Source: Bacteroidota bacterium (GTDB lineage Bacteria; Bacteroidota; Ignavibacteria; Kryptoniales; JAKASW01). From it: a stretch of DNA of 53,513 bases. The position numbers were made by a program, and so were the translations under genes. Location of the stretch: NCBI GenBank assembly GCA_021811615.1, contig JAJZNW010000088.1, positions 1 through 53,513 of the forward strand, given 5' to 3'. How positions within the stretch are numbered: the first letter of the stretch is position 1; each line of letters starts with the position of its first letter. The notes under the pieces were generated by a model. That model was not told the DNA's origin and searched no databases. It was given only the letters and a program-made list of their open reading frames with translations. Shown here piece after piece: positions 12,825-45,763 of the stretch.

Positions 12825-12825
12825 A

Positions 12826-15171
12826 CTAATTCTGCTTACCGGCGAAAGAACCCGAACCCATGAACACAAAGATGAGTAAGTACATGCTTAGTCCCGCAAA
12901 GAAACTCAATGTAAATCCCCAAACCATGGAAAGAATAACGGATAAGACAGAACCAACGACCGACATTATTCCGTTCACGCCGTACATCCATGGAATATAT
13001 TTTACAAGGTCGTTCTGTTTCAGCCATTGTATTCCCGTCGGGAAAGGTATGCCCAGCAGGAAACCGAACGGCGACAGTAAAACAAAAGACACAATCGCCC
13101 TGATTGCCAACCCGTAAGCCAGAAATCCATCCAGAATCACCGGATGTATAACGAACAGGAGCACCCCGGCAATTACTATCAGGCCCGAAATACTCCTCAA
13201 GCGCTTCATGACATCCTGTGGAAATATTCTCCCTCCGAAAAAGCTTCCCACGCCCATTCCGACCATCAGCGAACCGAGCAAAACGGACAATGCGATCGTC
13301 GGCGAGCCGAGGTAAAGAATGAATTTCTGGAACAGCGATATCTCCAAAATCATAAACCCGATACCGATACCGATAAACATCATGAGAGGAGGTAATACTC
13401 TTTCTTTTTCTTTGCCCTTTTTATTCTTCTTCAATTTTGAGTTTATCTTCTTCAAAGGAATCAATACGGACAGCAAGGCAACCAGCAACGTTGCTGTCAA
13501 GAGATACGCAAGGTCGCCGGGCACGCCCTTGTCCACCTTGTAAAAAAAGGGACTGTCATCTCGAACAGGATATATATCGGAGCTGTTCCTCGCGGTAATT
13601 TCTTCGAGAGAGCTCCGCCCGTATTTAACATCCTGCAACAGAACATTTTCAATTTCATTGTTAACAGGATTATTCATAAACGGAAGATAGGTTATCCGGG
13701 GAAGTCCTGCGGGAAAAGAGCTGACGGCTTTCGATATAGCTCTTACCTCATCGGCCGTATAGGCGGATTTTTTGATAACGATTGTCGGAGCGTAGTCGCT
13801 GCCTAAAATCATGAAGTGGCTGAGGGCCTCGGAATTATCGACCCCGTTTTCCTTAAAGGCATGGAAGGCTGTGACAATAAGCTTGACAAGTTCCCATCTG
13901 TTGTGCAACGTGAAAATCAGTTCTCCGTTTTGAGTCAGGCTTTTCAAATAGTCTTTGATAGCTTCCACTGTCAGAAGGTAGTTTTCATTGGAAGCGAGCC
14001 CGTCGATGTTCTGCAGCTGCTTGGTTGAAGGAAGGGCCAGAACTATGATATTGTAACGCTGACGGGTGCTTCTTATGAAATGACGCCCCTCCGCCACTTT
14101 GATTTTCACGTTTGGGAAACTTGTGTAGATGCCTCCATTGTAGTCGCGATACTTTTTCACCAGGTCGACGAAATCCGGGTTGACTTCCACACCGGTAATG
14201 TTCCTGACTCCCCAGAGAAGCCCCGCAAGTATCTCGCCTCCGCCGCCCGGCCCGATTACGAGCATGTTGTCCTTTTCTTGCCCGGACAGAAGCAGGAGAG
14301 GAATTGTCGTGGAATGATGCAGGAGAATTTCATTGAGAAGGGTGTCGTGGTGTGCGACGTTTCCGTTAAACCTGTACATCTGGGATCCCGCCGCACCATC
14401 AATAAAAAGATCTTTGACGAAATCGCGATTGTCATACTCTACCAGGTCCGACCTTCCGTTGATACTCCACCTGCTATCCGCTATATGTGGCTCCATGTTT
14501 GGGTCATCATAGGTATAGTAGATGTCCTTTTCAGGAAAATGACCGATCGGGATTTTTCCTAGTAGATCTCTTTTTCCAAAGACGGCCAGCAGTACGACGA
14601 AAAAGAAAAGAGAACCGTACAACAATGTGCGTTTCTTCTTTTCGATGCCAAAGTAGTGAACCGATGAAGTGAAAAGGACAAGGGCCATGAACAGAACGGC
14701 GTTGACCGCATTGAACAAATCAAAGATGTATATCGACAGGATAGAGCCGGCTGCAGCCCCCATCAGGTCCGAAGCATAAATTCTAAAACCGGCGCTTGCA
14801 TAGTTACGGAAAAACTCAGCGTACACGATCCCGGCAAAGAAGAACGGGAGGAAGAGGAGAAAGAAATAGACGTACTGGTCAGTTATGGAGAAAACGATCT
14901 CAAGTCCGACAAACGATACGAGCGAAACGCCCGAAAGGAGGATGAACCTGCTCAGTACTTTTGGGCCCATGGCTGATCCATCTCCCGGCTTCATCCGATA
15001 AAACGAATAGATCCCGCCGCTTCCCAGGCCCAAAATAGCCAGAGACAAAATCATGAAGGCGTAATTTTGAACAAATATCAGGGAGGAAATTCTCGTGGAT
15101 ACTATCTCAAAGCAGATAACGACCGCCGAGACTACAAACACACTCAGAGTCGTGCTTCTTGAGTTGTTCAT
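12826..15171 (-). CDS. Polytopic membrane protein with spermidine-synthase-like methyltransferase-fold domain
   Basis: A 781-residue protein in three parts. The N-terminal block has about six membrane helices (residues 5-185). The middle soluble domain (about 230-530) has the Rossmann motif VIGPGGGGEILAG, then GVEVNPDFVDLVKKYR and VAEGRHFIRS, the pattern of spermidine synthase and related S-adenosylmethionine folds. The C-terminal block has seven or so further helices with MGVGSFFGG and GIPFPTGIQWL, the signature of fused MFS/spermidine synthase proteins. Such proteins are widespread, but polyamine synthesis has rarely been shown for them. The membrane embedding makes a role in envelope chemistry more likely. 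The ATG overlaps the upstream PPIase stop by four bases. Confidence 0.8.
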   Translation of the reverse strand: MNNSRSTTLSVFVVSAVVICFEIVSTRISSLIFVQNYAFMILSLAILGLGSGGIYSFYRMKPGDGSAMGPKVLSRFILLSGVSLVSFVGLEIVFSITDQYVYFFLLFLPFFFAGIVYAEFFRNYASAGFRIYASDLMGAAAGSILSIYIFDLFNAVNAVLFMALVLFTSSVHYFGIEKKKRTLLYGSLFFFVVLLAVFGKRDLLGKIPIGHFPEKDIYYTYDDPNMEPHIADSRWSINGRSDLVEYDNRDFVKDLFIDGAAGSQMYRFNGNVAHHDTLLNEILLHHSTTIPLLLLSGQEKDNMLVIGPGGGGEILAGLLWGVRNITGVEVNPDFVDLVKKYRDYNGGIYTSFPNVKIKVAEGRHFIRSTRQRYNIIVLALPSTKQLQNIDGLASNENYLLTVEAIKDYLKSLTQNGELIFTLHNRWELVKLIVTAFHAFKENGVDNSEALSHFMILGSDYAPTIVIKKSAYTADEVRAISKAVSSFPAGLPRITYLPFMNNPVNNEIENVLLQDVKYGRSSLEEITARNSSDIYPVRDDSPFFYKVDKGVPGDLAYLLTATLLVALLSVLIPLKKINSKLKKNKKGKEKERVLPPLMMFIGIGIGFMILEISLFQKFILYLGSPTIALSVLLGSLMVGMGVGSFFGGRIFPQDVMKRLRSISGLIVIAGVLLFVIHPVILDGFLAYGLAIRAIVSFVLLSPFGFLLGIPFPTGIQWLKQNDLVKYIPWMYGVNGIMSVVGSVLSVILSMVWGFTLSFFAGLSMYLLIFVFMGSGSFAGKQN

Positions 15172-16913
15172 TTCTGACCGGACGCGATTGCGTTGGATAA
15201 AACGCCTTGAAATATTTTCACCCGGTATTTCTTTTTCAGCCCCGCCTCAACGTCGTCCGATATCTTGCGGCGATAGTAGCTTCTGAACTCTTCTTCTACC
15301 GTCTTGCCTTCAACCTCGTCATAAGTTAGCTGCTTCTCCGGCTGGAGCTGAAAACATTTGATGACCGCGAATTGTTTTCCGTTCGTAGAATCGTAGTACT
15401 CGACCGGTCCTGCAGATTCGCCCAACTTTAGTTTGAATGCCGCCTTTGCCAGGTAGTCTCCGCCCGCGGTCCTGTATGCTTCAAGCGAGCCATCGCGTTC
15501 ACGAATGAATATTTTGACCAACCAGGAGTCTGAGACTTTTTCGAACGGGGTACCTTTGTTGATCTCATTTATGTCCGCGGCGGCCTTCGCGCTGTCCGAA
15601 TATACTCTTGCGTAAATGTACACCTTCTTCAACTGATAAAAGGTCGGATCTTTATGAGTTTCATAAAACTCGCGCAGTGCTTCCGATGTCGCTTTGGGTA
15701 TTCGCTCTTCAATAACCGCCTGGTTATATGAATAAATCAGCCTGCCTGTTATGAGGGGGTCTTGAGTATACGGATTCAACAATTTCTTTTCCAAACCAGA
15801 ATTTATCGCGGCCATGACAACGCTGTTATCATTTACAGCATCCAGGATAAAATCCTTGACATTGGCGGAGTTTAGCAGCGTATTGGGGCTAAGCACTACA
15901 ACTTCCTCCAGCAGCCGGAGATATTCCTTCAAATCGACCTTACCATTGTTGTACGAGAGTATTTCAAAATTATCACCTCTCCGGATAGCATGTTCAATGG
16001 TATCTTTATAAGCAGCGGCATAGAAGCGGTCGTCTTCGGACGACCATTTCACGAGCTGGTCCAGTCCCCTTTGATTCCACTTAAGCGAGCTCTTGTCAAC
16101 AAGTCCGTGTCTATAGTTCTCGTACGCATCGTTGTAAGCCACATAGTATCCCTTGCGAAGCTGCGATATTATCTCGTCTTTCATTGTCTCAAACGGTTCC
16201 AACTTTATTCTTTTAATATCCAGTACCTTCACTATGTGGAAACCGTCCGCTGCTTCTACAACCCGGGTGAATCCTTTCTTAAGTTGAAAAATCACGTTAG
16301 CAACCGCGTCAACCATGGTTTCCGGCCAGGTCACCTTCCTGTCAGCATTCACCTTGAAGCTCTTCAGCGAATAAGGTTTCAGGAGACTCTCAAGATCAAG
16401 AGATTTGCCAAGACCGTCTTCTATTCGTAGCGCTATGGTCTTTAGTGAGTCGAGCTTCTCTTTTGTCTGATCTGCCGGCATCGGTAATGTTATTTCGAGA
16501 CAAACAATTTCCTTGTCCATTTTCTTGTAAGCCTCGGCTGCCGTCTTTTCGTTGGCGTACTTATCAACGAAGCTCTTATCGTAGAAAGCGTTCATCAATT
16601 GGTAATTAATGATGCGACGTGACGGCCTCATCAAATCCCGGTCATTATTTAGTTTTTTATCGAAGAAATCAAACAGCTTCAAGCGATCGACTATCAGGTG
16701 ATTCAGTGCATTGCCGTAAGCTTCAGATATATCTGGAAATCTCCGGTTATACCACCGGTCATTTACATATTGGATCAGCTCCTTGACAGTTATTGCATAA
16801 TGCCCTCCGACTATAGCTACAGTATCATCGTTACTGATAGCCAATTTGCATTGCGCACGACCCGCGAACGCAGAAAACAACACGATGAAGAACAGAATCC
16901 TTACTGATTTCAT
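15168..16913 (-). CDS. Periplasmic parvulin-type peptidyl-prolyl isomerase (SurA/PpiD-like)
   Basis: A 581-residue secreted protein. The start at 16913 opens a signal peptide (VRILFFIVLFSAFAGRAQC). An alternative ATG at 16958 adds 15 residues and would overlap a doubtful upstream frame. The central part shows a parvulin-like pattern: LKKGFTRVVEAADGFHIVKVLDIKRIKLEPFETMKDEI matches the conserved GFHIIKV and PFEEVK of this fold. A second, weaker isomerase-like region lies near residues 425-530 (LKLGESAGPVEYY, FAVIKCFQLQPEKQLTYDEV). Such proteins fold outer-membrane or exported proteins. It is first in a three-gene operon, so it may be a dedicated chaperone for an envelope process carried out by the next two. 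Confidence 0.8.
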   Translation of the reverse strand: MKSVRILFFIVLFSAFAGRAQCKLAISNDDTVAIVGGHYAITVKELIQYVNDRWYNRRFPDISEAYGNALNHLIVDRLKLFDFFDKKLNNDRDLMRPSRRIINYQLMNAFYDKSFVDKYANEKTAAEAYKKMDKEIVCLEITLPMPADQTKEKLDSLKTIALRIEDGLGKSLDLESLLKPYSLKSFKVNADRKVTWPETMVDAVANVIFQLKKGFTRVVEAADGFHIVKVLDIKRIKLEPFETMKDEIISQLRKGYYVAYNDAYENYRHGLVDKSSLKWNQRGLDQLVKWSSEDDRFYAAAYKDTIEHAIRRGDNFEILSYNNGKVDLKEYLRLLEEVVVLSPNTLLNSANVKDFILDAVNDNSVVMAAINSGLEKKLLNPYTQDPLITGRLIYSYNQAVIEERIPKATSEALREFYETHKDPTFYQLKKVYIYARVYSDSAKAAADINEINKGTPFEKVSDSWLVKIFIRERDGSLEAYRTAGGDYLAKAAFKLKLGESAGPVEYYDSTNGKQFAVIKCFQLQPEKQLTYDEVEGKTVEEEFRSYYRRKISDDVEAGLKKKYRVKIFQGVLSNAIASGQK

Positions 16914-17342
16914 TGATAGCTCACTGTCATGGTTCGACCTTTGCAATGACTCTGTCATACCGGTAATGAAAATGGTTGCTTTGCACTGATTGTGCGCCCC
17001 CGGGAAATCTCGACATGTGCATTTCCGGCTACTCTATAAACGATCTTCATCCGTTGAGCGAGAAGCTGCTCAAGATTGAAAAGGAGAACAACCGCTGCCG
17101 CGGAGAGAAGGAAGCGTCCGTTCACGATGGCTCTCCACGAAGTTGGTCCAGACTGAAGGACTGGATAGCTCCCGCCTGAGTAGGTGCGGGAAAATTGGTT
17201 TCCCCTGGATGGATCACGCGCCCCGGTATCCGATGGAGATGGCGGCTTCTTTGCAGGCAACTCAGCATCACTATATTGTCCAGCCCTGTGATTTCATTCC
17301 GTCCTGTCCCTCGAGGAGGGACAGGACGGATCGTCATTGTAT
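16914..17342. other. Intergenic stretch with terminator and possible gene remnant
   Basis: A 429-base gap. A minus-strand frame of 101 codons (16955-17260) contains a signal-peptide-like segment (FLLSAAAVVLLFNLEQLLAQ) but its remaining residues are unlike any protein I know. Its stop overlaps an alternative ATG of the PPIase gene. It may be a decayed secreted-protein start. The strong hairpin at 17299-17329 belongs to the gene ending at 17343. Confidence 0.4.
17299..17329 (-). terminator. Perfect 14-bp-arm hairpin after the beta-helix gene
   Basis: CCGTCCTGTCCCTC and GAGGGACAGGACGG form a perfect 14-base-pair stem with a three-base loop, 14 bases past the stop codon at 17343. The position fits transcription termination or 3'-end protection of the receptor/beta-helix transcript. 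No U-run follows on the minus strand. Confidence 0.65.
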
Positions 17343-19118
17343 TTACTTAAGGAGAAGCATCTTCTTGGTGATCGACCGGTCACCATACTTGAGCGTATAG
17401 AAGTAGATGCCCGTTGCGAGGTTGGCTCCGTCGAAATTAACCGTATAAGCCTGAGGAGCCTTGAAGCCGTTCACAAGTGTCGCCACTTCCTGGCCCAGCA
17501 CGTTGTAAACCTTCAGCGAAACGTAGCCAGCTTTGGGAATCGTGAAGTCTATCGCAGTGGTCGGGTTAAACGGATTCGGATAGTTCTGCTGCAGCTGGAA
17601 CTTCTGGGGAAGCGCCTGTCCTTCATGAACACCAACCATAACCGAGCCATCCAGAACTCCGGCAATAGTTGCCAGTTCAGCGCTTTCCTGCGCTTTCCAC
17701 GAGGCGTATTGAGTCGGGAACCAGTTCAAATCGCCTAACGGGAAACCACCTAACCCGGCGCTCAACAGGTCGGCATCGGTATAAGAGAGATCGATCGGGA
17801 CGGGCCAATCAGCGTAAATGAAATTTGAAGTTTCCAGGTTACTGGACTGCCGCCAGGAATCCAGCGGACTCCCATAGGATGTGTCAACACATGCTATTGC
17901 ATAGGCTTTCAATTTTGCAAGCTGAGTTGAAAACAACACATCCGTGTTCTTGAAAGCAGGATAAGCACTCGGCGTAATCCAGCCGGTGCTTACAAGTTTA
18001 GGATAGGTCGTGTTATCGTTGAACAGGGAAGCGGTCCTTGTGTTCATTGGAATCATCTGAGAGACCCACTGCGTATTGTCATCCACCTTGTTGGTGTTTA
18101 ATGTTGAGATGATATCGGAAAGAGATGGATCCCAGTAAGCCAGGTTCTTGTTAGCATAAAAGTTCTGACCGTTTGCCAGGAAAGTAGAATCGACACGCAC
18201 ATTGACAAGACCCATTGCGAGGCTATCCATATCAACCTCTCCCGCATCGGCCTTCTGAAGAACATTGCAATATCCCTGTAACTGACAATTTACAAAGATA
18301 TTGTTTGTAACGCTCATATTGGTCTGATCCCCATTATTCATGAAGACAAAGCCTGCACAATCGATGAAGTCGTTGTGATTGAAAACTACTTTGTCGACAG
18401 CTACACCGTATCTGAATTTATACAGAGTTCCCTGGACATTCACGTGTGTGCAGTTTTGGACGGAGAGCGTATCCTCGTGAGTAACGCCAGTGCCGTTGAA
18501 ATCCGTGACGCCACCATTTCGACGGCAGGAATGCCCATCCAAATTCACAAAGTAATCGTTTGTAAAAAACACGCGCGTGTCGGCAGGAGGGCCTCCGACC
18601 CATGTCCACCAGGTATGTTCCATGATGCAGTTGTCTACTTGAAGTCTGTAACCGGATCCATTGAAATTAAAGAAGGCCCATCCGCCGCCATTGCCGGCAG
18701 AATTACCGATTTCAAGATCGACGTTCTTAATAAGCAGGTCTTTGCCGACGTTCATACCTCCATAGGTGGGGGTTGCGGCTGTCGCATCACCGGTAATGAT
18801 CGGCGGCGCAAGAGTAGCCTTGCTCGTTTTCAATGAACTTTGGTCCTCTCCCATGATAATGGTCCTGTACTTCGTAGAAGTCACAGGGTTGTTTGCGCAC
18901 GAGTAGACCCCCCCGCTTTTCAGTACATACACACGGGTTGCGGGAGCCATACTATCCGATGCCATGAGAAGATAAAGAGTATTTGTATGACCATATTCAA
19001 AATCATCCTTCACTACGAGAGTGTCGCCGCTTTGGCTCGAGACATACTGCATATCCTGAGCAAATGCCGACGGTAGCAGAAGAAATAGCATACTGAAAAG
19101 CAAAATAGCACTTTTCAT
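17343..19118 (-). CDS. Beta-helix surface protein paired with a SusC-like receptor, T9SS-sorted
   Basis: A 591-residue protein with a signal peptide ending SAFAQ. Residues ~60-320 read as a right-handed beta-helix: short repeats with small and Asn residues such as LLIKNVDLEIGN, LQVDNCIMEH, FFTNDYFVN, LSVQNCTHVN, VVFNHNDFIDC and MSVTNNIFVNC. Near residues 470-500 is a conserved block, LLSAGLGGFPLGDLNWFP then QYASWKAQESAE, which also occurs in the second such protein at 23587-25320. A sorting domain ([10 protein letters not shown]) ends the chain. Proteins of this fold bind or cleave polysaccharides (pectate-lyase-like). No lyase catalytic residues are clear. It follows the TonB receptor by 120 bases, the position SusD holds in Bacteroidetes, so surface glycan capture is the inferred role. 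Confidence 0.82.
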   Translation of the reverse strand: MKSAILLFSMLFLLLPSAFAQDMQYVSSQSGDTLVVKDDFEYGHTNTLYLLMASDSMAPATRVYVLKSGGVYSCANNPVTSTKYRTIIMGEDQSSLKTSKATLAPPIITGDATAATPTYGGMNVGKDLLIKNVDLEIGNSAGNGGGWAFFNFNGSGYRLQVDNCIMEHTWWTWVGGPPADTRVFFTNDYFVNLDGHSCRRNGGVTDFNGTGVTHEDTLSVQNCTHVNVQGTLYKFRYGVAVDKVVFNHNDFIDCAGFVFMNNGDQTNMSVTNNIFVNCQLQGYCNVLQKADAGEVDMDSLAMGLVNVRVDSTFLANGQNFYANKNLAYWDPSLSDIISTLNTNKVDDNTQWVSQMIPMNTRTASLFNDNTTYPKLVSTGWITPSAYPAFKNTDVLFSTQLAKLKAYAIACVDTSYGSPLDSWRQSSNLETSNFIYADWPVPIDLSYTDADLLSAGLGGFPLGDLNWFPTQYASWKAQESAELATIAGVLDGSVMVGVHEGQALPQKFQLQQNYPNPFNPTTAIDFTIPKAGYVSLKVYNVLGQEVATLVNGFKAPQAYTVNFDGANLATGIYFYTLKYGDRSITKKMLLLK

Positions 19119-19238
19119 CTCAGACCTCCTGAAATAGGTTATTGTTTGACAAATTTGTGTGAAAACGCTAATTCACGCTTGCCCAAGAATTCGCCAACAC
19201 CTCCTTCCTCTAAGCACGACAGTGACTGAACGGACATT

Positions 19239-22200
19239 TTAGAAAGAATACCTCAAATTCAGCTGGAACACCGACGGAGAATATAAAACTGAAACCAGGT
19301 TCCTGGTAATCGGAGCACTCGGACTCATTCTGTAAGTCTGATACGTGCTTACTCCATTGTGAAATATGTTTACTCCGTTCAAAGCTATGCTCAAACCATT
19401 AACCGGCAGATCCTGTTTAAGAGTAAAATCCCACCTGTAAATATTGCCTGTAAAGGAAGTCGCTTCAGGCCTGCTGCCTACACTGTTCAATAGATTTCCG
19501 GTCATGCTAAACGATATGCGGCCGGAGAAACCTTTGTAGTCGACACCAAGCGCAACGTTCACCACGTCGTTTGCCTGTTGAATCAATCTTCCGACATAGA
19601 CCGTGTCTTTCGTAGTGAAGACGTTTATGATATGATGAGGGGGATTCGGATCACGAACCTGTGTGTTTTCCAGTGTAAGAATATTGTAAGCCGTATTTGA
19701 CCCTGATTTTGTATAGTTGACATCCAGGACCAGCGCACTAAGCGGACCGGGCAAATACCAGAAATTCGTCTGCCAATCAATCTCAACGCCTCTTACATAG
19801 CCGAGGCTCGGATTGTTTAAACTGAGACTAACCTGCTGATAGAGGGGCACCGTGAATCCGAATCTCTGGCTCAAAAATGATGAGTCGGGGATAGGAGCGT
19901 AAGCGGCATATTGAGCGCGGTTCGCGTAGTAAATCGTAGTATTGTACATTTGATTTGCAATTATTTTGTAGAATGCATCTATTGTAAAGAGACCGATCGA
20001 ATTATTGTGAAAGGACGCAACGACATCGAAGTTTTGTGCTGTGGCTGGTTTCAATAAAGGATTGCCAAGTTCCATGCCGCCGTCATAGAAAGCAACCTTA
20101 GGAATAATTGCCGAATAGTCGGGCCGGGAAATTCCGGTCGAATAGGCAAGCCTGAGATCCGACCAATCATTAACCCGATACTGGAGCTGCACATCGGGGA
20201 ACAGGTTGTTATCCGTGCGGTTCACGTTGAAAGCATTATAGGGTACTTTGTAATGCGGGTTAGCTGGATTAGCAGAGTCGTTAACGGTAATAGCAGGCGG
20301 GTTGCCTTCGGTACTGGCACAGTCGCCATAGACAGTATGAATAACATAAGTATACTGGGCATGGTAAATCATATTATAACTTTCGAACCGAACACCGCCC
20401 AGTAAAGTCAGCTTTGGACCAATGTTGACGGTACCCATTGCATAGCCCGCTGAAAATTGTTCCGCACCGTTCCAGTCATTCTTATAGCTGTCGGCGTACT
20501 GTATGGGCACCTGCCAGCTCGGCTCAACCAACTGTAGCCAGGTATCAAACACATTCCGATTAAGTGTATACTTATAGCCGCCGTTAGTAAAATCGTACAG
20601 ACTATTCAGATAGTATTTCCCTCTGGTAAAGTCATTATTCATAACCATAGGGAAACTCACCGGATTGGACTGACTAGACCCAAGGTATATATTTGCCTCC
20701 GGACTCGCATACAAATCGTTAGTCCTATTGGTCATATCCTCATTGACATTATTTTCACGCGTTGTTCTTATATACTTAGCGCCGGCTTTAAATGTGGCTG
20801 TGAGGTCATTAGAAAAGTTGACCGGCGCCGACACATCGAAGGATGCATTATATAAATGCTGACTAAACTGATTCCAAATACTCATGGCCCACCCGTTTAG
20901 CGTTGCGCCAGTAGCGTCTAACGGGTTAAGATTGTTGAAGACTCCGAGTGCGTTTGTAAGCGACATGCTCTGCTGCGCAGCCTGGGAACTATAAGTGATC
21001 GCGTTGCCTGAAGCATCGTAGCCGAACGGTGCAGTAGCATTCTGATTATAAAACTGGTTCCATCCCGCACCATTAATACCAGGTGTATATCCGAAAATTG
21101 TATGTTGGTTGGTGAAAGAATGAGACAAGCTCACATCCAGCTTTATTACGCCAAACATATTTTCTACCTGAAGCGCGTTAATCCACAGGTCCTTTCCATA
21201 TAGATTGCGGTCCGGGGTGAATATGACCTGATTATTTGTGAAGTTGATCGAGGTGTAATTATTCAGTTGATCTGTAATGTTCCCGGAATACGTATTCTGG
21301 AGAACCACTTTACCGGTTGGAAACCGATAGTCAAGTATAAGACTCCCGCCGTTGGTTTTGACAATGTTGGCGGCGTATTGATAAGTCGCACCGGTAGTTA
21401 TGTAGGTAGCTTGACCGTATTCATTATTGGTTGTCCCGAGGAACGCCGGTGTGATGGAAGCTATTTGATTACCACCATCGGTGCGGTCCATATTCCCCTG
21501 CAGGAATACACCAAATTTATCGCCGAAGAAACGATCACTTATACTCGCCCAAAATTTGTAGTTGTCCGCCACCCGATCTGTCGAATTGTAATTTCCCTGA
21601 GCGAGCATATCAAAATGAAAAGCGCTTGGGGCCTCCCTCAATCTTAGATTAACCACGCCGCCAAGTGCGTTGGCATCCATATCCGGCGTAAGAACTTTTA
21701 TGACTTCAATGCTGGAGAGCAAATTCGATGATATGAAACCAAGATCTGTTGCCCGGTTGTTCATGTCAGTTGAAGGCAGCTCGATACCGTTTATCAGGAT
21801 CTGATTCAGTTTAGCCTGAATTCCACGAATAACTACCTGGTCTCCGTTCATAAGCGAAACACCTGGCAAGCGGCTGAGCGCGGTTGCAGCGTTGTCGTCC
21901 GGCAGCTCATGGATCTTCTCGGAAGACACAACGTTTATTATAGTATTCGAGGAGAGTTGCGTGTTGATCGCTTCCCTCTGACCCTGGGCCTGAGCAGTCA
22001 CCGTCACGGCTTTGCCCTGTATGCCCACGGCTCTGAGGTCAAAGTCCTTTTCAAGCGTCCCGCTGGTCGGGACGTTGACAACCTCACTTCTGCCTTCGTA
22101 TCCGACATACGATATAACGAGCGTGCATTGTCCGGCCGGGGCATTGTAGACGACATAATTCCCGTTAATATCAGACGAAGCTCCGATGCTGGTGCCTTTG

Positions 22201-22409
22201 ACGACAATTGTGGCACCGGGTAGAGGGTCTTTGGTGTCCACGTCGCGCACTTTCCCCTTGACCGTCGCCGTCCCAGCGGCCATTAGAGATTGAGACGCGA
22301 ACAGCAGAACAATCCCACTCAGAGCAAACCCCCTGATGCTTGAGTGAAACACAGCACTTCCACAAAGGAGCCGCAGTAACGACCTAAAAGTAACAATTTT
22401 CTTGTTCAC
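19239..22409 (-). CDS. SusC-like TonB-dependent receptor 1
   Basis: A 1056-residue outer-membrane receptor. After a signal peptide ending SLMAAG comes a carboxypeptidase-regulatory-like domain (VKGKVRDVDTKDPLPGATI, about residues 48-125), then the plug domain (about 145-260, with LPDDNAATALSRLPGVS, VVIRGIQ and LGGVVNLRL), then a 22-strand barrel with the C-terminal NLRYSF ending in Phe. Such receptors import oligosaccharides using TonB energy. Because the downstream gene is a surface beta-helix protein rather than SusD, and the locus encodes hemicellulases, xylan oligosaccharides are a reasonable but unproven cargo. It shares architecture with the receptor at 25500-28472, with clear divergence in the barrel. 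Confidence 0.93.
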   Translation of the reverse strand: MNKKIVTFRSLLRLLCGSAVFHSSIRGFALSGIVLLFASQSLMAAGTATVKGKVRDVDTKDPLPGATIVVKGTSIGASSDINGNYVVYNAPAGQCTLVISYVGYEGRSEVVNVPTSGTLEKDFDLRAVGIQGKAVTVTAQAQGQREAINTQLSSNTIINVVSSEKIHELPDDNAATALSRLPGVSLMNGDQVVIRGIQAKLNQILINGIELPSTDMNNRATDLGFISSNLLSSIEVIKVLTPDMDANALGGVVNLRLREAPSAFHFDMLAQGNYNSTDRVADNYKFWASISDRFFGDKFGVFLQGNMDRTDGGNQIASITPAFLGTTNNEYGQATYITTGATYQYAANIVKTNGGSLILDYRFPTGKVVLQNTYSGNITDQLNNYTSINFTNNQVIFTPDRNLYGKDLWINALQVENMFGVIKLDVSLSHSFTNQHTIFGYTPGINGAGWNQFYNQNATAPFGYDASGNAITYSSQAAQQSMSLTNALGVFNNLNPLDATGATLNGWAMSIWNQFSQHLYNASFDVSAPVNFSNDLTATFKAGAKYIRTTRENNVNEDMTNRTNDLYASPEANIYLGSSQSNPVSFPMVMNNDFTRGKYYLNSLYDFTNGGYKYTLNRNVFDTWLQLVEPSWQVPIQYADSYKNDWNGAEQFSAGYAMGTVNIGPKLTLLGGVRFESYNMIYHAQYTYVIHTVYGDCASTEGNPPAITVNDSANPANPHYKVPYNAFNVNRTDNNLFPDVQLQYRVNDWSDLRLAYSTGISRPDYSAIIPKVAFYDGGMELGNPLLKPATAQNFDVVASFHNNSIGLFTIDAFYKIIANQMYNTTIYYANRAQYAAYAPIPDSSFLSQRFGFTVPLYQQVSLSLNNPSLGYVRGVEIDWQTNFWYLPGPLSALVLDVNYTKSGSNTAYNILTLENTQVRDPNPPHHIINVFTTKDTVYVGRLIQQANDVVNVALGVDYKGFSGRISFSMTGNLLNSVGSRPEATSFTGNIYRWDFTLKQDLPVNGLSIALNGVNIFHNGVSTYQTYRMSPSAPITRNLVSVLYSPSVFQLNLRYSF

Positions 22410-22456
22410 GTAAGTATCTCCTCAATGGTTTAGAAAATCTCCTATTGCAGACAATT

Positions 22457-22483
22457 CTTTCGCGAAATGGTACGCCGCGAAAG
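22457..22483. promoter_or_regulatory. Inverted repeat in the receptor 1 leader
   Basis: CTTTCGCG and CGCGAAAG are perfect eight-base arms separated by 11 bases, 47 bases upstream of the receptor start codon. It could be a protein-binding site or an RNA hairpin affecting translation. No similar pair is seen upstream of receptor 2. Confidence 0.4.
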
Positions 22484-22564
22484 CTGTGCTTAGATGAATT
22501 AATCCAAATCTTCTTTGCATCTTTATAGTCAAGCTTCTGACCGCACAATTTCGCCCCTCAAGCA

Positions 22565-22599
22565 ATTCCCGCCCTGCCGACACCGGTCAGGGCGGGAAT
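22565..22599. repeat. Strong 12-bp-arm hairpin in receptor 1 leader
   Basis: ATTCCCGCCCTG and CAGGGCGGGAAT are perfectly complementary over 12 bases with an 11-base loop. Hairpins of this make follow intact sorting-domain genes elsewhere in the window (for example 52065-52091). Here none precedes it, which supports a lost gene or an attenuator between promoter and receptor. Confidence 0.55.
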
Positions 22600-23248
22600 A
22601 ACCTTAAGGAGAAGCAAAACTTCTGCTAAACGGATTCCTTTCACGCGACGGTGACGCAAACGCCGCATAACGAATCACGCACTCCCTGTTCGGCGGGAAA
22701 ATGGTAGTACGACCGACCGATTTCCGGGGTGCCTCGCGATTTGGTGCTTGGGAATAAGTGGTGTGGTGCTTGGATGGAATTTGAAATGGTAGGAAAGGAA
22801 TTACGCCCTGACTGAAACTAACCTTAAGAATCGATCTGGTGCGGGGTCTTAGATGAGAATGAATTTCCCTGATGTCAGCCCCGTGAACAGACCCGGCGCA
22901 CTCTTCGCCCGCGAAATACAGGGGGGCTCCCTCCCGCAGATCAGCCGACCGGCCGATGAAGGATACGGAGAACTCCGATCCTGCTGTCCCCTGAATGCCA
23001 GACATCTCAAGCCTCACTTCTTCGATGGTTGCTTCGGCAGCCAAACGGCTTTCTGATCTCAAAGAGCCGTATCGCCGAGCTTCTTCAGTTCAAATCATCG
23101 CCTAACGGTCGGGTAAGGCGGCCTTGGATTTAGTTGCCATCTTGCAATTCCACACGGAAGCTTAAATGTGGAACAATCGCGGCTGATCAGCCCTTGACCA
23201 ACCGCTCACCCAGGTTTTACGCCGGGCGAACGAAACAAAACGACTCGC

Positions 23249-23274
23249 AACGGTTCATGAACGATTGAACCGTT
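23249..23274 (-). promoter_or_regulatory. Operator 1: inverted repeat overlapping the start of transcription
   Basis: AACGGTTCA - 8 bases - TGAACCGTT is a perfect inverted repeat of nine-base half-sites. It begins three bases downstream of the -10 box of the promoter at 23278-23306 and so covers the expected transcription start. A site with the same half-sites, spacing and position occurs at 30567-30592. The geometry suits a dimeric repressor; the cognate protein is not identified in this window. Confidence 0.7.
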
Positions 23275-23277
23275 TTA

Positions 23278-23306
23278 AATATATTCATGCTGGATTGTAA
23301 TGTCAA
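23278..23306 (-). promoter_or_regulatory. Sigma70 promoter of receptor operon 1
   Basis: On the minus strand TTGACA (23306-23301), a 17-base spacer and TATATT (23283-23278) match the sigma70 consensus at 11 of 12 positions. It lies about 270 bases after the stop of the previous gene and reads toward the receptor whose start codon is at 22409. Confidence 0.75.
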
Positions 23307-23537
23307 GGAAATTCGACGTTGTCGTGATTTCGAACTCCGCGCAAAGCACGAAGACTGCAGAGGCATGCTGGTATTCCGGAAGTGCTCCCACGGACAATTG
23401 GAAAGTAACACCCTCCCTCGCCACCCCCACGACACTTTCAGCGCGACGTCGTGGGAAACGAATACTCATCATCGTGTCTTCCCGCTTCCGCGAAGAGACC
23501 TTCGAGGTCAAATAGTCTTGAATCGGGGAAAATGTAG

Positions 23538-23565
23538 GAAGGGGGGGCATTGACGCCCCCGCCTT
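23538..23565 (-). terminator. Terminator hairpin after beta-helix gene 2
   Basis: GAAGGGGGGGC and GCCCCCGCCTTC pair over 11 bases with a one-base bulge and an ATTGAC loop, 21 bases past the stop at 23587. On the minus strand the sequence that follows contains ATTTTCC, a short U-run. Confidence 0.65.
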
Positions 23566-23586
23566 CTTCGGACTAACCAATCCGTG

Positions 23587-25320
23587 TTACTTGAGGAGAA
23601 CCATTTTCTTTGTCAATGAAACGCTTCCGGCATCAAGCCGATAGAAATAGACACCACTTGCAAGACCTGCGCCGTTGAAGTCCACTTCGTGATTCCCCGG
23701 GGCCTGGACTCCTGATACCAGGGTAGTGACTCTCTCTCCGAGGACGTTATAGACCGCAATGCTCACAAATCCTCTCTTCGGTACGGAATAACTGATGACC
23801 GTCGTGGGGTTAAATGGATTCGGATAGTTCTGATCGAGGGAGAACTGCTTGGGAACTTCCGGCGCTGCAGATGTGACGGCGGTTATGAAATTGAGACTGT
23901 CATTGATCGCCGCGTTCTCTGCGGCTTCCTGCTTTTGCCATGTAGCGTATTGCGCCGGGAACCAGTGGTAAAGATCTCCGAGTGGGAATCCTCCCATTCC
24001 AGCAGTGAGCAGTGTGTCGTTGGTGTATGTCATGCTGCCGGGCAACGGCCATTTACCCTGGGTACTCGAGTCGGGGTCGTACGACCAGTCCACAGTAGCA
24101 CCGCCTGCCCATACGCCTTCGAGGAAGGCCTTCGCGCTGTCTATGTTGGTCGGTGGATCTATCATGTGCGGATTGACACCATCGTACAGATCCGAGATGT
24201 GAATGTACGGATAGTCGGGATTGTCACTGAAGCTCATCGTCTTCTTGCTGACCATCGGCTGGGGGGACACTTTATCCGAATCGTTCTTGACAGTATCTGC
24301 AAACGGGCTGGTTGCCATCCAGTTGGTGAGCCATGACTGTTCGTAATACGCGCTGTGCGTGAAGATTATGTGACGTTGCAGTGAATCGTACGGCACCGTG
24401 AATCCTATTGTCGACAGGGAATCTATGTTTAAAGTCCCTCCGTTCGGCGCTCCATGCGAATAGCCGGCGAGTGTCGACCCAACCATGAACGTATTCTCAA
24501 ACACGCAGTTGGCCACGGCAATGTTATGCCAATAGCCGGACTCCATCGGGAACAGCATGATGTTCAGGAAGGTGCAGTGGTTGAACCACACATTGTCGGC
24601 ATATTCCGGAGATTCCTGCATGAGCCCGTATCCCATATTGTTGAACGTGCAGTTGACAAAGCTTATGCTGTCGGTATGCCAGGCAGTCGACTGGTACGTC
24701 CAGGAGACTGCCCTTCCGTACCATTGGAAGGTCGGAGAGACGTCGTTCCGGAAGTAACAGTTGGTGAAGGTTCCCTTGAAATCTTTGCATTGAAGCGTCA
24801 CTGAACCGCCGCTTCCATCTCCGTTGCTGGAATAGTCAAAGATGACATCGTTGAAATCGGCGACTTCGCCTGCGCCGCTCAGATCTGCCAGCGAGTCGTC
24901 TTCTATCACGATAGCGCCGCCATCCTGAAGGCCCTGGGTATTGGCATAGAGAAACCACACGTTTTTCATGGTAATGTTTCCGTAAATGTCGAGGATGGGG
25001 CCTCCCCAGCTTATACTTGAAGTCTGGATAATTTGCGGCAATGCTGTACTACCATTGCCCTGGTTGGGGCCGATGATTGTGAGTTGGGACCCCTTCGGCG
25101 TAGTGATTATGCCGGAAAGGACATAGTACCCCGCCGGTTGCAGTTCAAAAACGGTATTGGACAAGGTGTTGTTGTTGATATGAGTCTGGATCGAATCATT
25201 CAAATTTCCCTGTCCTGTGTACGAGTCGCTCTGTACTATCACGGTGTCCATGGTCTGAGCCTTTAGGCCGATTGGAACCATGAATAGTGCCACGAGCAAA
25301 GAAAATATAATTTGCTTCAT
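23587..25320 (-). CDS. Beta-helix surface protein paired with receptor 2, T9SS-sorted
   Basis: A 577-residue protein. The start at 25320 follows GGAGGTCC at a suitable distance and opens a signal peptide ending GLKAQ. A longer frame reaching 25503 has no such features. Residues ~60-300 show beta-helix repeats (ITMKNVWFLYAN, FNDVIFDYSSN, FTNCYFRND, ISFVNCTFNNMG, VWFNHCTFLN, IAVANCVFEN). The block LLTAGMGGFPLGDLYHWFP and QYATWQKQEAAE near residues 455-485 is shared with the protein at 17343-19118. The rest of the two chains is much less alike. A sorting domain ([14 protein letters not shown]) ends it. It follows receptor 2 by about 180 bases. Role inferred as surface glycan capture or cleavage for import. 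Confidence 0.82.
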   Translation of the reverse strand: MKQIIFSLLVALFMVPIGLKAQTMDTVIVQSDSYTGQGNLNDSIQTHINNNTLSNTVFELQPAGYYVLSGIITTPKGSQLTIIGPNQGNGSTALPQIIQTSSISWGGPILDIYGNITMKNVWFLYANTQGLQDGGAIVIEDDSLADLSGAGEVADFNDVIFDYSSNGDGSGGSVTLQCKDFKGTFTNCYFRNDVSPTFQWYGRAVSWTYQSTAWHTDSISFVNCTFNNMGYGLMQESPEYADNVWFNHCTFLNIMLFPMESGYWHNIAVANCVFENTFMVGSTLAGYSHGAPNGGTLNIDSLSTIGFTVPYDSLQRHIIFTHSAYYEQSWLTNWMATSPFADTVKNDSDKVSPQPMVSKKTMSFSDNPDYPYIHISDLYDGVNPHMIDPPTNIDSAKAFLEGVWAGGATVDWSYDPDSSTQGKWPLPGSMTYTNDTLLTAGMGGFPLGDLYHWFPAQYATWQKQEAAENAAINDSLNFITAVTSAAPEVPKQFSLDQNYPNPFNPTTVISYSVPKRGFVSIAVYNVLGERVTTLVSGVQAPGNHEVDFNGAGLASGVYFYRLDAGSVSLTKKMVLLK

Positions 25321-25364
25321 ACTAAAAGGACCTCCATAGGTTTTATGTTTTGTACTTTTTGGCA

Positions 25365-25475
25365 GAGGCTTCAACCGGAAGCCTCCACCATTGTTATTTG
25401 TAAAGTCTGCCGTATCCACTGGACTTATAGCTTTTGACTGTGGCGGACAAAGCGCCAGGACTCTACGTCCGCCAC
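25365..25475 (-). promoter_or_regulatory. Two hairpins between receptor 2 and its beta-helix gene
   Basis: GAGGCTTC-AACCG-GAAGCCTC (25365-25385) and GTGGCGGAC-18 bases-GTCCGCCAC (25440-25475) are perfect stems within the intercistronic region. Hairpins in such places commonly set different transcript levels for two genes of one operon by blocking exonucleases. A second promoter here is not visible. Confidence 0.5.
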
Positions 25476-25499
25476 TTCTCGAATAATCTGCACCCAAAC

Positions 25500-28472
25500 T
25501 CATAACGCGTATCTTATCCCGAGATAAGTCGTAAATCCATAATACTGTTCGGACGTGAATCCATTTATGGCGTTTTCTGCAGAGATGTTCGCTTCGCTGT
25601 TCAGGTTCTCGCCGTCAAGATAAATCTGGAATCCCCTCCATGGCAGCATCTGGGTCACTTGCGCATCCAGCCTGAGATATCCTTGCGTGTATGCATCCTG
25701 GGAGGTGTAGGTTCCTACGGCGATGAGGAAGCTTCCCGTGTATTGTAACGAGACCCTTGCCGAGAAGCCCTTGTATTCATAGCCCAGGTAGGTGTTCAGA
25801 ATGGTATTGGGCTGATCGATCAGTCTCGCGGCCCTGCTGCTATCGTGAAGTACCGTTACTCCTCTCGCCACGGGCACACTCGTGATAACCGGGTACCGCG
25901 CAACTGAATTTAGAGTTGTAAAATTCGCACCCAGTACGATTCCGTTAAGGAATCCGGGCAAATACCAGAGCCTTGTCTGGTAAGACAATGAGATGCCCTT
26001 GATATAGGCATTGTATGGACTGTTGATGTTAGTGCCAAGAGACATGCCGCTTGGAAGAGCCGGCTGCGTAAATTGGCCGAGTGTATCAAAACCCTCGGCG
26101 ACCAGATTCGGCGGGAGGGTCTGGTAGAGCTGATAATACACGCCATAGTCGAAATGAGCCACCGTCTTGTAGAACGCGTCCACAGAGAACAGTCCAATAG
26201 TGTTGCTGTGCACATCGAACGAGATATCCTCGTTATACGACTTGGGGGGCCTGAGGTTCGGATTGCCGCCTATCACAGTGCTGTACTGTGAGTAGTAGTG
26301 CGGGTTAGTTTCGTTATAGTTAGGCCGCGCTATGGTCTGACTGTAAGCAGCGCGCAAATCCAGCCAATCGTTGACCGTGTACTTTCCTTCTACCATTGGA
26401 AGCAGGAACATGTTCCGGGTATCGGACGACACTGCATAACTGAGCTGGTTAACCGGGTTGTTAGAGACGTTGAGGTTAAAGACATCGTAGTGAGAGTAGT
26501 CCGCTTCGTATCGCGCACCGCCTACTACGTCCAATTGCGGGCCAATGTTCAGGTTAGCCATCAGATATCCGGCGTAGTACCTTTCGATGTAGGAGTATTT
26601 GTTAGGATACCAATAGTCGGGGCCATTCGCCCAGCCTCCGTTCACAGTACCTGACCAGCCCGCAGAATTTTTCGGGTATGTGGCGTTTATGTAGTTTGCT
26701 ATCGAAGTGAGCAACGCAGCCTGAGGGACCCAGTACATTGCTCCGAACCGATTGTTCAGAAAGCTGGCGTACAATTTTGAATCCGTGCTCGTGAACAAGT
26801 TGCCGGGAAATTCTCCGGTACCTTTATAGTACTGGAGATTGAACCTCGAGGCGATCGAATCAACTGCCGCCGTGTTGTTGACAAGTCCTGCTACCGGGTT
26901 TATGAAAGGGTTGTCGCTGGCGTTATTGCGGTAATTATACCTCCATTCGCCACCGAACTTGAAGTAGCCCGACACCGCCGAGGCAACGCTTACCGGCACC
27001 TTGATGTCGAGCCTGAGTTGCTGATCGTTCTCATGGTAGACACTCGAGGTGAGGTTCATGTTGTTCAGATAAGTGGTTGTTGCGCCACCGGCATTTTCGA
27101 ATATGATATTGTTGGTGAGGTTCTGGGGAGGCTCGTTGATAGGCGCCACTCCTGATATACCGGCCGTCTGGCCGAAATTGAAGCTCGGCTGATTTGGGTT
27201 TGAATTAAGAGAGTAAGTGTTTGCCGCCTGCAGGCTCAGGGAGAACAATCCGAAATCGTTAACCCAGTGAAGGGTGTTCAAAGCAAGGTCCTGCGTATTG
27301 TTGAACCCCGTGAAATTGAACTGTAGGCTCTTGCTGCCGTAATTGAGCGTTTCGGTATAATCCTCGCCACCGGAATTGAACCTGCTGAACATGTTGGTAG
27401 AAGTGATCGCGCCGTGCGGCAGCGTATAATCAAGTATCAGGTTCGCTCCGTACCTCCGTCTCTGCTCGATGTGGCGGTCAAGCGTCACATCGTCCACTTG
27501 AACCGGCTCGAATCCGTTAGGCAGGACGTTAGCGCTCACCTGGTTGTACACCGCACTCATGTTGTCGGCATTTGCACTGTAGTTTTCCGCATTGACGAGG
27601 GCGTAAACTCCGAGAACGTTATTGAAGAACCGGTCACTCGCCGATGCAACTGCCTTGTAGTTGCCGTACGTTGCGTTTTTCGATACATATCCGGACTGCC
27701 ACATCAGGTTCGAGTGAAAGCCCTTCGGCGCCTGGGCCAGTTCCAGATTCACGTATCCGCCGATCGCATCAGCGTCCATATCCGGCGTCAGCGTTTTGTA
27801 AACCTGAATAGATTTCAGCATATAGGGCGATATTGACGACAGGGAAATCGCCCTGCTCCCACCCTGGGAAGCCAGCGGAACGTTGCTGATGGCTACTTCA
27901 TTATATTGTGGTTGAATCCCTCTTATGGTTATCTGGTCGGCTTCACCGTTGCTTCTTTGTATCGAAACGCCTGCCAATTTGCCGATCGCGGAAGCCGCGT
28001 TGGTTTCCGGCAAAGCTTGTATCTTCGCCGCCGAAACCACACTTACAATCTTGTCCGATGACAATTCCTGGTTGATTGCCTGAAGCTGACCTTCCGCCTG
28101 GCCTGTCACGACAACGGTTTTTCCCACCACAGCAGTCGCAGTGAGACCGACATTCTCGATCACAGTCTCATTCTCTTTGACATCCACAACCCCTTTGAAG
28201 GTTGTGTATCCAACATACGACACCACAAGCGTCTGTTCGCCGGAAGGGGCGTCATGAATTATATAGTTCCCGTCCAGATCCGTCGATGCGCCAATGCTGG
28301 TCCCTTTCACGAACACGGTGGCTCCTGGCAAAGCCGACTTGGTCTTTTTGTCGAAGATCTTTCCTTTCAATGTTCCTGTACCGGCCGCAAAAGCAGTTTG
28401 CACGGCAAGAAGAAAGGCGAAGCTTGAAATCGCCACTGCCTTCAATAGCAGTTGTGTGTAATCCTTAACCAT
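25500..28472 (-). CDS. SusC-like TonB-dependent receptor 2
   Basis: A 990-residue outer-membrane receptor built like receptor 1: signal peptide ending AFAAG, carboxypeptidase-regulatory domain (LKGKIFDKKTKSALPGATV, about 32-110), plug (about 125-250, with LPETNAASAIGKLAGVSI, ITIRGIQPQYNEVAI and IGGYVNLEL) and a beta-barrel ending GIRYAL. The plug motif TLTPDMDADAIGG is nearly identical to receptor 1 (VLTPDMDANALGG), while the barrels differ, which suggests different cargo. ATG is preceded by AGGGAGAATTC. It is the first certain gene downstream of the promoter at 30596-30624, but with a leader of about 2.1 kb. Confidence 0.93.
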   Translation of the reverse strand: MVKDYTQLLLKAVAISSFAFLLAVQTAFAAGTGTLKGKIFDKKTKSALPGATVFVKGTSIGASTDLDGNYIIHDAPSGEQTLVVSYVGYTTFKGVVDVKENETVIENVGLTATAVVGKTVVVTGQAEGQLQAINQELSSDKIVSVVSAAKIQALPETNAASAIGKLAGVSIQRSNGEADQITIRGIQPQYNEVAISNVPLASQGGSRAISLSSISPYMLKSIQVYKTLTPDMDADAIGGYVNLELAQAPKGFHSNLMWQSGYVSKNATYGNYKAVASASDRFFNNVLGVYALVNAENYSANADNMSAVYNQVSANVLPNGFEPVQVDDVTLDRHIEQRRRYGANLILDYTLPHGAITSTNMFSRFNSGGEDYTETLNYGSKSLQFNFTGFNNTQDLALNTLHWVNDFGLFSLSLQAANTYSLNSNPNQPSFNFGQTAGISGVAPINEPPQNLTNNIIFENAGGATTTYLNNMNLTSSVYHENDQQLRLDIKVPVSVASAVSGYFKFGGEWRYNYRNNASDNPFINPVAGLVNNTAAVDSIASRFNLQYYKGTGEFPGNLFTSTDSKLYASFLNNRFGAMYWVPQAALLTSIANYINATYPKNSAGWSGTVNGGWANGPDYWYPNKYSYIERYYAGYLMANLNIGPQLDVVGGARYEADYSHYDVFNLNVSNNPVNQLSYAVSSDTRNMFLLPMVEGKYTVNDWLDLRAAYSQTIARPNYNETNPHYYSQYSTVIGGNPNLRPPKSYNEDISFDVHSNTIGLFSVDAFYKTVAHFDYGVYYQLYQTLPPNLVAEGFDTLGQFTQPALPSGMSLGTNINSPYNAYIKGISLSYQTRLWYLPGFLNGIVLGANFTTLNSVARYPVITSVPVARGVTVLHDSSRAARLIDQPNTILNTYLGYEYKGFSARVSLQYTGSFLIAVGTYTSQDAYTQGYLRLDAQVTQMLPWRGFQIYLDGENLNSEANISAENAINGFTSEQYYGFTTYLGIRYAL

Positions 28473-30893: not shown

Positions 30894-31880
30894 TTATTTC
30901 GTGTCGTGCGACGAAGCGACATACTCTTGCATCCACTTCAAAGCGGGCCTCTCGGTGCCGTTCTTCCTCACAAGGTAAGAGTCCTTTCTCCAGATGATTC
31001 CCTGGATGTAACCCCAAAGCGTGATACCCTTGACCGCAGGATTCGTCCAGAATAACGGAAACTGCTTCTTGTATATCGCGAGCTGAGCGGCATCGTTCGA
31101 CTCGTTCACGTCATACTCTGAGATGTAAATAGGGAGTCCCGTCTTTGCCAGAAGATTGAGGTTGGACTCGATGGTGTCCGGGCTGACCTTCTCCATGAAA
31201 TGACCCTGGCAGCCGATGCCATCGATCAGGTGCCGCTCTTTGAGTAAGTCGATGATGCGGATAAACTTCTCCGTCATTTTCCGGCTACGAAGAATGTTAT
31301 ACTCGTTGAGGAGGAGCTTCGAGTGCGGAAATGCTTTCCTTGCACGCTCGTATGTCCATATCACCCAATCCCAGCCCGTCTTTCCGTCTCCGCCCAGTGC
31401 GTTCTTGTAAACCGGCGGGTGCTGGATCGGCTCGTTCACCACATCGACCATCGCAGATTTCGGATATCTTTCTCCCGCCTCGCGTATCCAGAGCTCGACC
31501 ATCTCCTTCTGTTTGGCCGGCGGAAGGCCGGCAATCCACGTCGGCTGCTGGTGACCCCAGACAAGGTTGTGGAACTTGAACGGGAAATGGTGTTCGAGGG
31601 CATAATCGTAAATCGAATCGAGCGGCGCCCAACGCCACTTTGCCGGATTCTCACTGACGGCAACGTTCCCCCACTTCCCAGCATTCTCCGGGGTGACCTG
31701 GTCCCAATATTTCGCGAAGTCGGCCGGGATGTACGATCCGATCACGTTGCCGATGAATTTGGATTGGCCTTTTGCTATCTGCGAGAAAGCCCCCGGCGAT
31801 GAAAACAACACAATCATGACAGCGAGACTGCCTATGAGTCCAACGATGGTAAGTCTATTATCCTTTCCATTGGATAACAT
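30894..31880 (-). CDS. GH10 endo-1,4-beta-xylanase without sorting domain
   Basis: A 328-residue xylanase. The start at 31880 follows AAGGA by seven bases. A hydrophobic export signal or anchor lies at residues 10-34. GH10 motifs are clear: KFHNLVWGHQQPTW, VVNEPI with acid/base Glu150, and YISEYD with nucleophile Glu255. The TPENAGKW motif near residue 63 is also typical. It cuts internal xylan bonds. Unlike the paralogue at 47795-49372 it has neither a fibronectin domain nor a T9SS sorting domain, so it should act in the periplasm, or anchored, on imported oligosaccharides. A weak relative of the 44-bp element (see 34495-34538) lies around 31976-32018, about 100 bases upstream. Confidence 0.93.
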   Translation of the reverse strand: MLSNGKDNRLTIVGLIGSLAVMIVLFSSPGAFSQIAKGQSKFIGNVIGSYIPADFAKYWDQVTPENAGKWGNVAVSENPAKWRWAPLDSIYDYALEHHFPFKFHNLVWGHQQPTWIAGLPPAKQKEMVELWIREAGERYPKSAMVDVVNEPIQHPPVYKNALGGDGKTGWDWVIWTYERARKAFPHSKLLLNEYNILRSRKMTEKFIRIIDLLKERHLIDGIGCQGHFMEKVSPDTIESNLNLLAKTGLPIYISEYDVNESNDAAQLAIYKKQFPLFWTNPAVKGITLWGYIQGIIWRKDSYLVRKNGTERPALKWMQEYVASSHDTK

Positions 31881-45723: not shown

Positions 45724-45763
45724 GATCTCATCCCCATTTTTAAACGACAGTCTAATTCTGTGA

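Follow-up and report, generated by a model that had tools for sequence, protein, structure and literature searches.

The window, that is, the whole stretch of 53,513 nucleotides that was analysed, carries two gene pairs of the same build on its minus strand. In each pair, a gene for a TonB-dependent transporter (the receptor) is directly followed by a gene for a secreted beta-helix protein with a T9SS sorting tail (the partner), as the first-pass annotation had described and as the coordinates and the TIGR04183 matches bear out. The genes of pair 2 lie at 25500-28472 and 23587-25503, and those of pair 1 at 19239-22409 and 17343-19118. Receptor 2 (990 aa) has a CarboxypepD_reg-like N-terminal domain, a plug and a beta-barrel according to Pfam, and is of the TonB-Xanth-Caul type; receptor 1, of the same type and with these Pfam domains as well, has 1056 aa. 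The open reading frame of partner 2 encodes 638 aa, but its start is probably M62 at 25320, which is preceded by GGAGG and followed by a hydrophobic leader as judged by eye, giving a protein of 577 aa. Partner 1 has 591 aa. By eye, both partners have hydrophobic leaders and neither leader ends in a lipobox cysteine. The T9SS type A sorting domains are located at 23590-23826 in partner 2 (residues 560-635) and at 17346-17582 in partner 1 (residues 513-588), and scored 44.2 and 41.0 bits on TIGR04183 against a cut-off of 23; Pfam recognised them as Por_Secre_tail. Ahead of the sorting domain each partner carries the GGFPLGDL block that had been noticed before: GGFPLGDLYHWFPAQYATWQKQEAAE at 23917-23994 in partner 2, and GGFPLGDLNWFPTQYASWKAQESAE at 17676-17750 in partner 1.

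Further genes on the same strand set the pairs among enzymes for xylan. At higher coordinates, Pfam identified a GH10 xylanase-type enzyme (30894-31910), a GH43 enzyme with CBM6 and a T9SS sorting domain (32077-34356), a XylR-type regulator with PBP1_XylR and an AraC-type HTH (34549-35688), an alpha-L-arabinofuranosidase with Alpha-L-AF_C, ASD1_dom and PA14 (41173-43173), a second GH10 with a T9SS sorting domain (47795-49372), and a GH43 beta-xylosidase-type enzyme (50179-51900). With two GH10, two GH43, the arabinofuranosidase, the regulator and weak GH30 matches, the window is a xylan locus. A TonB-dependent transporter, CAZymes and a sugar regulator are co-located in it, as in a polysaccharide utilisation locus, and the canonical susC/susD pair of such loci was not found in the window. 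The weak GH30 matches lie in two adjoining open reading frames of about 650 aa (43843-45801 and 45816-47756, minus strand), in which a T9SS-type domain stands ahead of the GH30 match; this placement is unusual and is possibly a start-codon or frame artefact. At lower coordinates, the partner 1 gene is followed by genes for a parvulin-type PPIase of 596 aa with two rotamase stretches (15168-16958, Pfam), a membrane protein of 781 aa with a spermidine-synthase-like stretch (12826-15171, overlapping the PPIase gene by 4 bases), and a TPR protein of 661 aa (10884-12869, overlapping the membrane-protein gene by 44 bases).

The receptors had been called SusC-type, an identity that we rejected for both. 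The SusC/RagA model TIGR04056 matched them with 53.5 and 74.6 bits, in the N-terminal part only, against a cut-off of 368, and the best family was TonB-Xanth-Caul (TIGR01782). Receptor 1 scored 321.4 bits on this model, above the curated NCBIfam cut-off of 310. Receptor 2 scored 289.1 bits over the full model, under the cut-off, and its nearest relatives scored alike; we regard it as a transporter that probably works like, and is closest to, TonB-Xanth-Caul TonB-dependent transporters (TBDTs), without being a strict member. When a structure model of receptor 2 (mean pLDDT 76) was searched against the PDB, the closest folds were the classic TBDTs PfeA, FepA, Cir, FecA and XusA, and RagA was absent among the best 50 matches. 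By sequence, the best PDB match of the receptors was 9gbc_A (XusA), and the RagA match was confined to the N-terminal end (profile 34-182). "SusC-like" is therefore a loose label resting on the N-terminal domain.

A second correction concerns the two partners, which had been taken to differ through most of their length and to share the block. After removal of the block and the tail, the two bodies aligned with 24% identity over 456 columns (E = 1.6e-9), almost full length, and with the tail included the proteins are 33% identical. They are thus homologous over their whole length, and the block as sole shared part was rejected. In the structure model of partner 2 (mean pLDDT 68, mediocre), mostly short strands are followed by a helical cap with a pLDDT of about 82-90, which holds the block, and then by the strands of the tail. 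A fold search with this model returned nothing at E 0.001, its top rows being mostly Ig-like domains that matched the T9SS tail, and a PDB sequence search gave no relative of note (one match, E 0.26). The bodies of 14 family members from the same genome were also compared with Pfam at E <= 1: Beta_helix matched 8 of them, DUF4957 matched 2 and DUF5123 matched 1, no other family appeared, and the matches shown individually were under the curated cut-offs. A T9SS is present in the genome, which encodes two SprA homologues over the cut-off; PorU-model matches were only below the cut-off of that model. The SprA homologues lie on different contigs (C69 and C80), possibly representing two T9SS translocons.

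The kinship with DUF5123 proteins also bears on the meaning of the block, which had been proposed as a conserved surface for docking to the receptor. Seven DUF5123 lipoproteins from five other genomes of the phylum all end in GDPRW or GDTRW, and multi-repeat T9SS proteins bear the same G-D-x-x-W ending, some of them twice. A profile of the DUF5123 lipoproteins aligned with the partner family in hhalign at 97.9% (E = 4.7e-13) over 212 columns of helix, an alignment outside which the shared ending falls and whose score, as for any repetitive beta-helix sequence, can be inflated. The gathering score of DUF5123 (PF17161, 35.1 bits) was not reached: one of the 14 bodies matched (E = 1.3e-4), and the full protein of L070 scored 20.6 bits. 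Judged by the hhalign match, the partners are homologous to DUF5123 beta-helix proteins. Because the DUF5123 lipoproteins and the multi-repeat T9SS proteins end alike, the block is the C-terminal ending shared by a DUF5123-like family of beta-helix folds, and is therefore no specific sign of docking. It is more conserved than the body (3.19 against 2.47 bits per column), and the TNCxFRN stretch is more conserved still, so that a special docking surface is not supported. The related concern that the block might be a general part of an unrelated enzyme family was partly justified: it is general in a beta-helix family. A W-F-P and helix extension after the block gave the impression of being common in receptor-linked members.

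We then asked how regularly the two genes occur together. Our genome contains 16 TonB-Xanth-Caul receptors after merging of pieces, 10 of them over the cut-off, with five weak partial rows (<=40.6 bits) dropped. For 14 of these, the next gene downstream on the same strand encodes a T9SS-tailed protein of the partner family; the two without a following partner are on contigs C45 and C9. Conversely, 14 of 16 partner-family members come after a receptor. This is far above chance, considering that the family search gave about 139 matches genome-wide, the majority confined to the T9SS tail; given an assumed number of about 3800 genes in the genome, the binomial probability is about 1e-18.

The same neighbourhood was found in other genomes. 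At E 1e-10 the partner family matched 21 of 61 genomes (our own included), and at E 1e-8 it matched 53 of 395 genomes of the phylum. Three sets of loci were read in six frames, which overlap and favour the top-scoring matches. The first set comprises 30 loci from 21 genomes, two of these loci from our own, and 28 of the 30 have an adjoining upstream receptor (27/30 with open reading frame calling in place of six frames). Of 33 loci from named records, 27 have one, four more have a receptor at a longer gap and two have none. In the phylum-wide set, all 26 loci have one. One of the named loci (L134) belongs to the isolate Stygiobacter electus. Within the genus, position lists were available for seven of the 12 other genomes, in which a partner follows 55 of the 79 receptors and a receptor precedes 55 of the 69 partners, leaving 24 receptors without a listed partner; the 55 pairs are a lower bound, for 69 of the 78 counted partners were listed and one receptor was maybe counted twice. 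Both the 28 of 30 loci and the 55 of 69 same-genus partners indicate that relatives of the beta-helix proteins are mostly found beside TonB receptors, as the first-pass annotation expected. One genome of the genus (G004) had neither such receptors nor the partner at the thresholds used, and three order-level relatives each gave a single weak match to TIGR01782 and lacked the partner.

Exceptions to the order receptor-partner were also noted. Family members without an adjoining receptor occur on contigs C55 and C89 of our genome and in L129, L136 and L174. A wider reading of 20 stretches showed no receptor in L174 and L183, and a partner ahead of the receptor in L185. The members on C89 (L183, 4887-8855) and C55 (L065, 563-3142) are large beta-helix proteins of 1322 and 859 aa, and close to the former is a 1644-aa frame that gave PorU-like matches. 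In L135 (3168-5024 and 5116-6849) and L186 a receptor is followed by two tandem beta-helix genes, and L172 has three beta-helix genes, several other T9SS genes and one receptor in a 20-kb stretch.

Adjacency was complemented by a comparison of the receptor and partner trees. For the 14 pairs of our own genome, receptor and partner distances correlated with r = 0.87, a value that none of 5000 shuffles reached. For 40 pairs from many genomes, the correlation was r = 0.92, compared with a mean of 0.43 for shuffles within genomes (0 of 2000 reached it). The T9SS tail alone correlated with the receptor at r = 0.79 in our genome and at 0.17 over all pairs. Seven of the 33 named loci (L117, L123, L129, L130, L131, L136 and L137) were left out of the tree comparison on account of an intervening gene or longer gap, a split receptor frame, no receptor, or a contig end. 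These results show that receptor and partner are inherited as a unit. Contact between the two proteins is not thereby demonstrated, and correlated trees are expected anyway because adjacent genes travel together.

SusD was absent from the pairs, as had been claimed: no SusD match was found among the window genes scanned (20 by Pfam, 9 by NCBIfam), and no SusD model was among the Pfam matches of the partners, which do not belong to the SusD family. Genome-wide, three SusD models matched only on contigs C133 and C25, in an assembly that is 84% complete, so that a gene could be missed. These contigs also carry the two genes of the genome that are over the SusC cut-off, each adjoining a SusD-like gene (PF12771 over cut-off). 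The question whether a SusD homologue serves the receptors of the pairs has a divided answer. In our genome the SusD-like genes adjoin two other receptors, but in the published xylan locus of Rhodothermus marinus a SusC-SusD pair stands a few genes from the receptor and its partner, according to the excerpted text of PMC6987092. For Melioribacter roseus, of the same class, the excerpted text of PMC3534657 reports SusCDE for starch. Because of these two cases, SusD is not generally replaced.

The glycan setting of the pairs varies between loci. In three distant loci from other genomes of the phylum (L170, L176 and L177), receptor, partner and a parvulin-type PPIase lie beside GH10. The gene order of L170 matches that of the R. 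marinus locus Rmar_1067-1081, and we infer from this order that L170 is R. marinus. As given in the excerpts of PMC6987092, that locus has in order GH43-CBM6, CBM4-GH10, a TonB-dependent receptor and a T9SS-tailed hypothetical protein; the receptor Rmar_1070 and the hypothetical protein, Rmar_1071, which has a Por sorting domain, are predicted to be co-transcribed with Xyn10A, and a terminator is predicted after Rmar_1071. A different set was found in L127 and L140, where ROK genes, receptor, partner, GH18, MFS and GH94 (the last three in varying order) form a chitin-type set. We counted the 57 genes downstream of the partners in 21 named loci, with 6 near-duplicate loci skipped; among the 25 of 64 families listed, the T9SS tail was the most frequent (9), followed by GH18 (5), GH2 (5), GH94 (4) and MFS (4). 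For one partner, in L167, a weak match to CBM_35 was obtained, with 21.9 bits against a cut-off of 28.

Taken together, we consider it probable that the two proteins of each pair form a unit for glycan uptake at the outer membrane, in which a TonB-dependent transporter other than SusC works with its cognate, T9SS-delivered surface partner, a beta-helix protein that binds glycans. The beta-helix protein would cross the inner membrane by Sec, be exported by the type IX system and presumably be retained at the surface. There it may bind the oligosaccharides that T9SS-sorted xylanases encoded in this locus set free and, in complex with the receptor, hand them over to the barrel, and the receptor would import them using TonB. 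The partner is kin to the DUF5123 surface lipoproteins, placed right after a receptor of another subfamily and with a T9SS tail in place of the lipid anchor. In six of the 26 listed DUF5123 matches, all of the single-domain lipoprotein type, the gene context was read, and the DUF5123 gene was third, after SusC and SusD, in 6/6 loci. These relatives beside SusC-SusD suggest a component like a surface glycan-binding protein (SGBP) that has here become the sole encoded partner. Since the SusCD-linked relatives hold this third position, "surface glycan-binding partner" fits better than the earlier proposal that the protein plays the part of SusD. From that proposal the conserved, co-inherited neighbour of the receptor, the lack of SusD at the locus and the glycan setting stand.

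Three other explanations of the pairing were weighed. The partner could be a parallel beta-helix enzyme (lyase, esterase or hydrolase) that trims polysaccharide at the mouth of the receptor, in which case the pairing would be metabolic coupling. Right-handed beta-helix folds are often catalytic, a pectin methylesterase was rank 7 in the Foldseek search, albeit weakly (E = 0.012, TMq 0.19), and the family has invariant D217 and H248 and a near-invariant R316 (A6 numbering), of which D217 and H248 could be catalytic. The 14 bodies, however, reached only Beta_helix, DUF4957 and DUF5123 in Pfam even at E 1, the single PDB sequence match is the weak one given above, and one scaffold in both xylan- and chitin-type loci would be odd for a single active site. 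We thus judge the enzyme unlikely. Only a little more doubtful is a surface adhesin or anchoring scaffold on insoluble fibre, which would be co-regulated with the receptor and never touch it. The receptor-free beta-helix T9SS proteins of our genome (C55 and C89) and of its relatives, as well as the multi-repeat T9SS proteins of the DUF5123 kind, would suit such a role, but the place as the very next gene after the receptor and the agreement of the trees inside one genome exceed what co-regulation would give, and an adhesin independent of the receptor would be expected to wander within the locus.

The third explanation leaves the architecture of the unit intact and changes its cargo to a siderophore, cobalamin or a peptide, for which the partner would be a binder of the XusB kind. 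By structure and by sequence, the closest solved receptors are largely iron-siderophore TBDTs, including XusA, which was solved with its surface lipoprotein. The neighbours of the pairs, however, include glycoside hydrolases, sugar-type regulators (XylR, ROK) and MFS genes, and we consider non-glycan cargo very improbable, more so than the enzyme or the adhesin.

The glycan uptake unit can be set against several known systems. In this phylum the textbook glycan importer is SusC-SusD, and polysaccharide loci are located by looking for such pairs. Like SusC-SusD (RagA-RagB) of Bacteroidia, the window pairs have a TonB barrel with a CarboxypepD_reg-like N-terminal domain, a surface partner encoded next to it and a CAZyme locus around them. 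Unlike in SusC-SusD, the receptor stays below the cut-off of the SusC model, the partner has a beta-helix where SusD has an alpha-helical fold, and it carries a T9SS tail rather than a lipid anchor. With the DUF5123/DUF4957 lipoproteins of SusC-SusD-DUF5123 operons the partner shares the beta-helix, the G-D-x-x-W ending and the profile match. In those lipoproteins an N-terminal cysteine is invariant and by eye resembles that of a lipobox, part of the N-terminus has an Fn3-like appearance (also by eye), and the gene comes third, whereas the window partner is second in order, T9SS-sorted and without SusD.

Receptors of the TonB-Xanth-Caul model TIGR01782, as in the window, occur in carbohydrate loci of Xanthomonas and Caulobacter; these bacteria are not known to have a T9SS, and no T9SS partner is known for their receptors. 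BtuB-BtuG is a non-SusC TBDT with a dedicated surface lipoprotein partner and cobalamin as cargo. The closest precedent by receptor is XusA-XusB (PDB 9gbc), likewise a non-SusC TBDT with a dedicated surface partner, and it demonstrates that a receptor need not be SusC to have a surface partner; it differs in its siderophore cargo and in that the partner is a lipoprotein. The atypical polysaccharide utilisation locus CHU_1276-1280 of Cytophaga hutchinsonii is similar in that glycan is used without SusD and another surface binder is essential, but this binder, CHU_1279, consists of two CBM-like beta-sandwiches and not of a beta-helix (both from the excerpted text of PMC12016534). The R. marinus locus has the same gene order as L170 and, unlike the window, its own SusC-SusD pair. 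In the literature searched, the receptor/beta-helix pairing was not found described as a unit; the excerpts of PMC6987092 contain one such pair and list its TonB receptor and "hypothetical protein" without joining them.

A stronger reading goes beyond the single unit, and we offer it tentatively, with appreciably less confidence than the uptake unit itself. Ignavibacteria, Rhodothermus-type and scattered other lineages may have a further type of TonB-dependent glycan importer, in which a beta-helix protein exported by T9SS sits as a lid on a barrel other than SusC. It would have evolved independently of SusD, from the beta-helix stock that supplies others with a third component, SGBP-like, beside SusC-SusD, and would serve xylan, chitin and other glycans. 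This raises the question whether a T9SS-exported protein without a lipid anchor of its own can be the lid or the catcher for a TonB transporter. With 16 TonB-Xanth-Caul receptors versus two genuine SusC in the genome, searches based on SusC/SusD may miss many of its glycan loci. The pair is testable, because it occurs in Stygiobacter electus and, by the gene order reported in the excerpts of PMC6987092, in Rhodothermus marinus.

Beside the pair itself, a PPIase gene of about 590 aa recurs in this setting. It follows the partner in five of 74 stretches, namely the window, L170 (11267-13042), L173 (11695-13422), L176 (10923-12782) and L177 (5923-7689). GH10 is present in four of the five, L173 being outside the GH10 scan. 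The PPIase may be a chaperone in the periplasm that is dedicated to the receptor or to the T9SS cargo. In R. marinus, its gene may be a separate transcript because of the terminator predicted after Rmar_1071 in the excerpted text of PMC6987092. A membrane protein of about 780 aa, which had no Pfam match in the two copies scanned, follows the PPIase in the window, in L173 (13428-15752) and in L177 (3584-5926).
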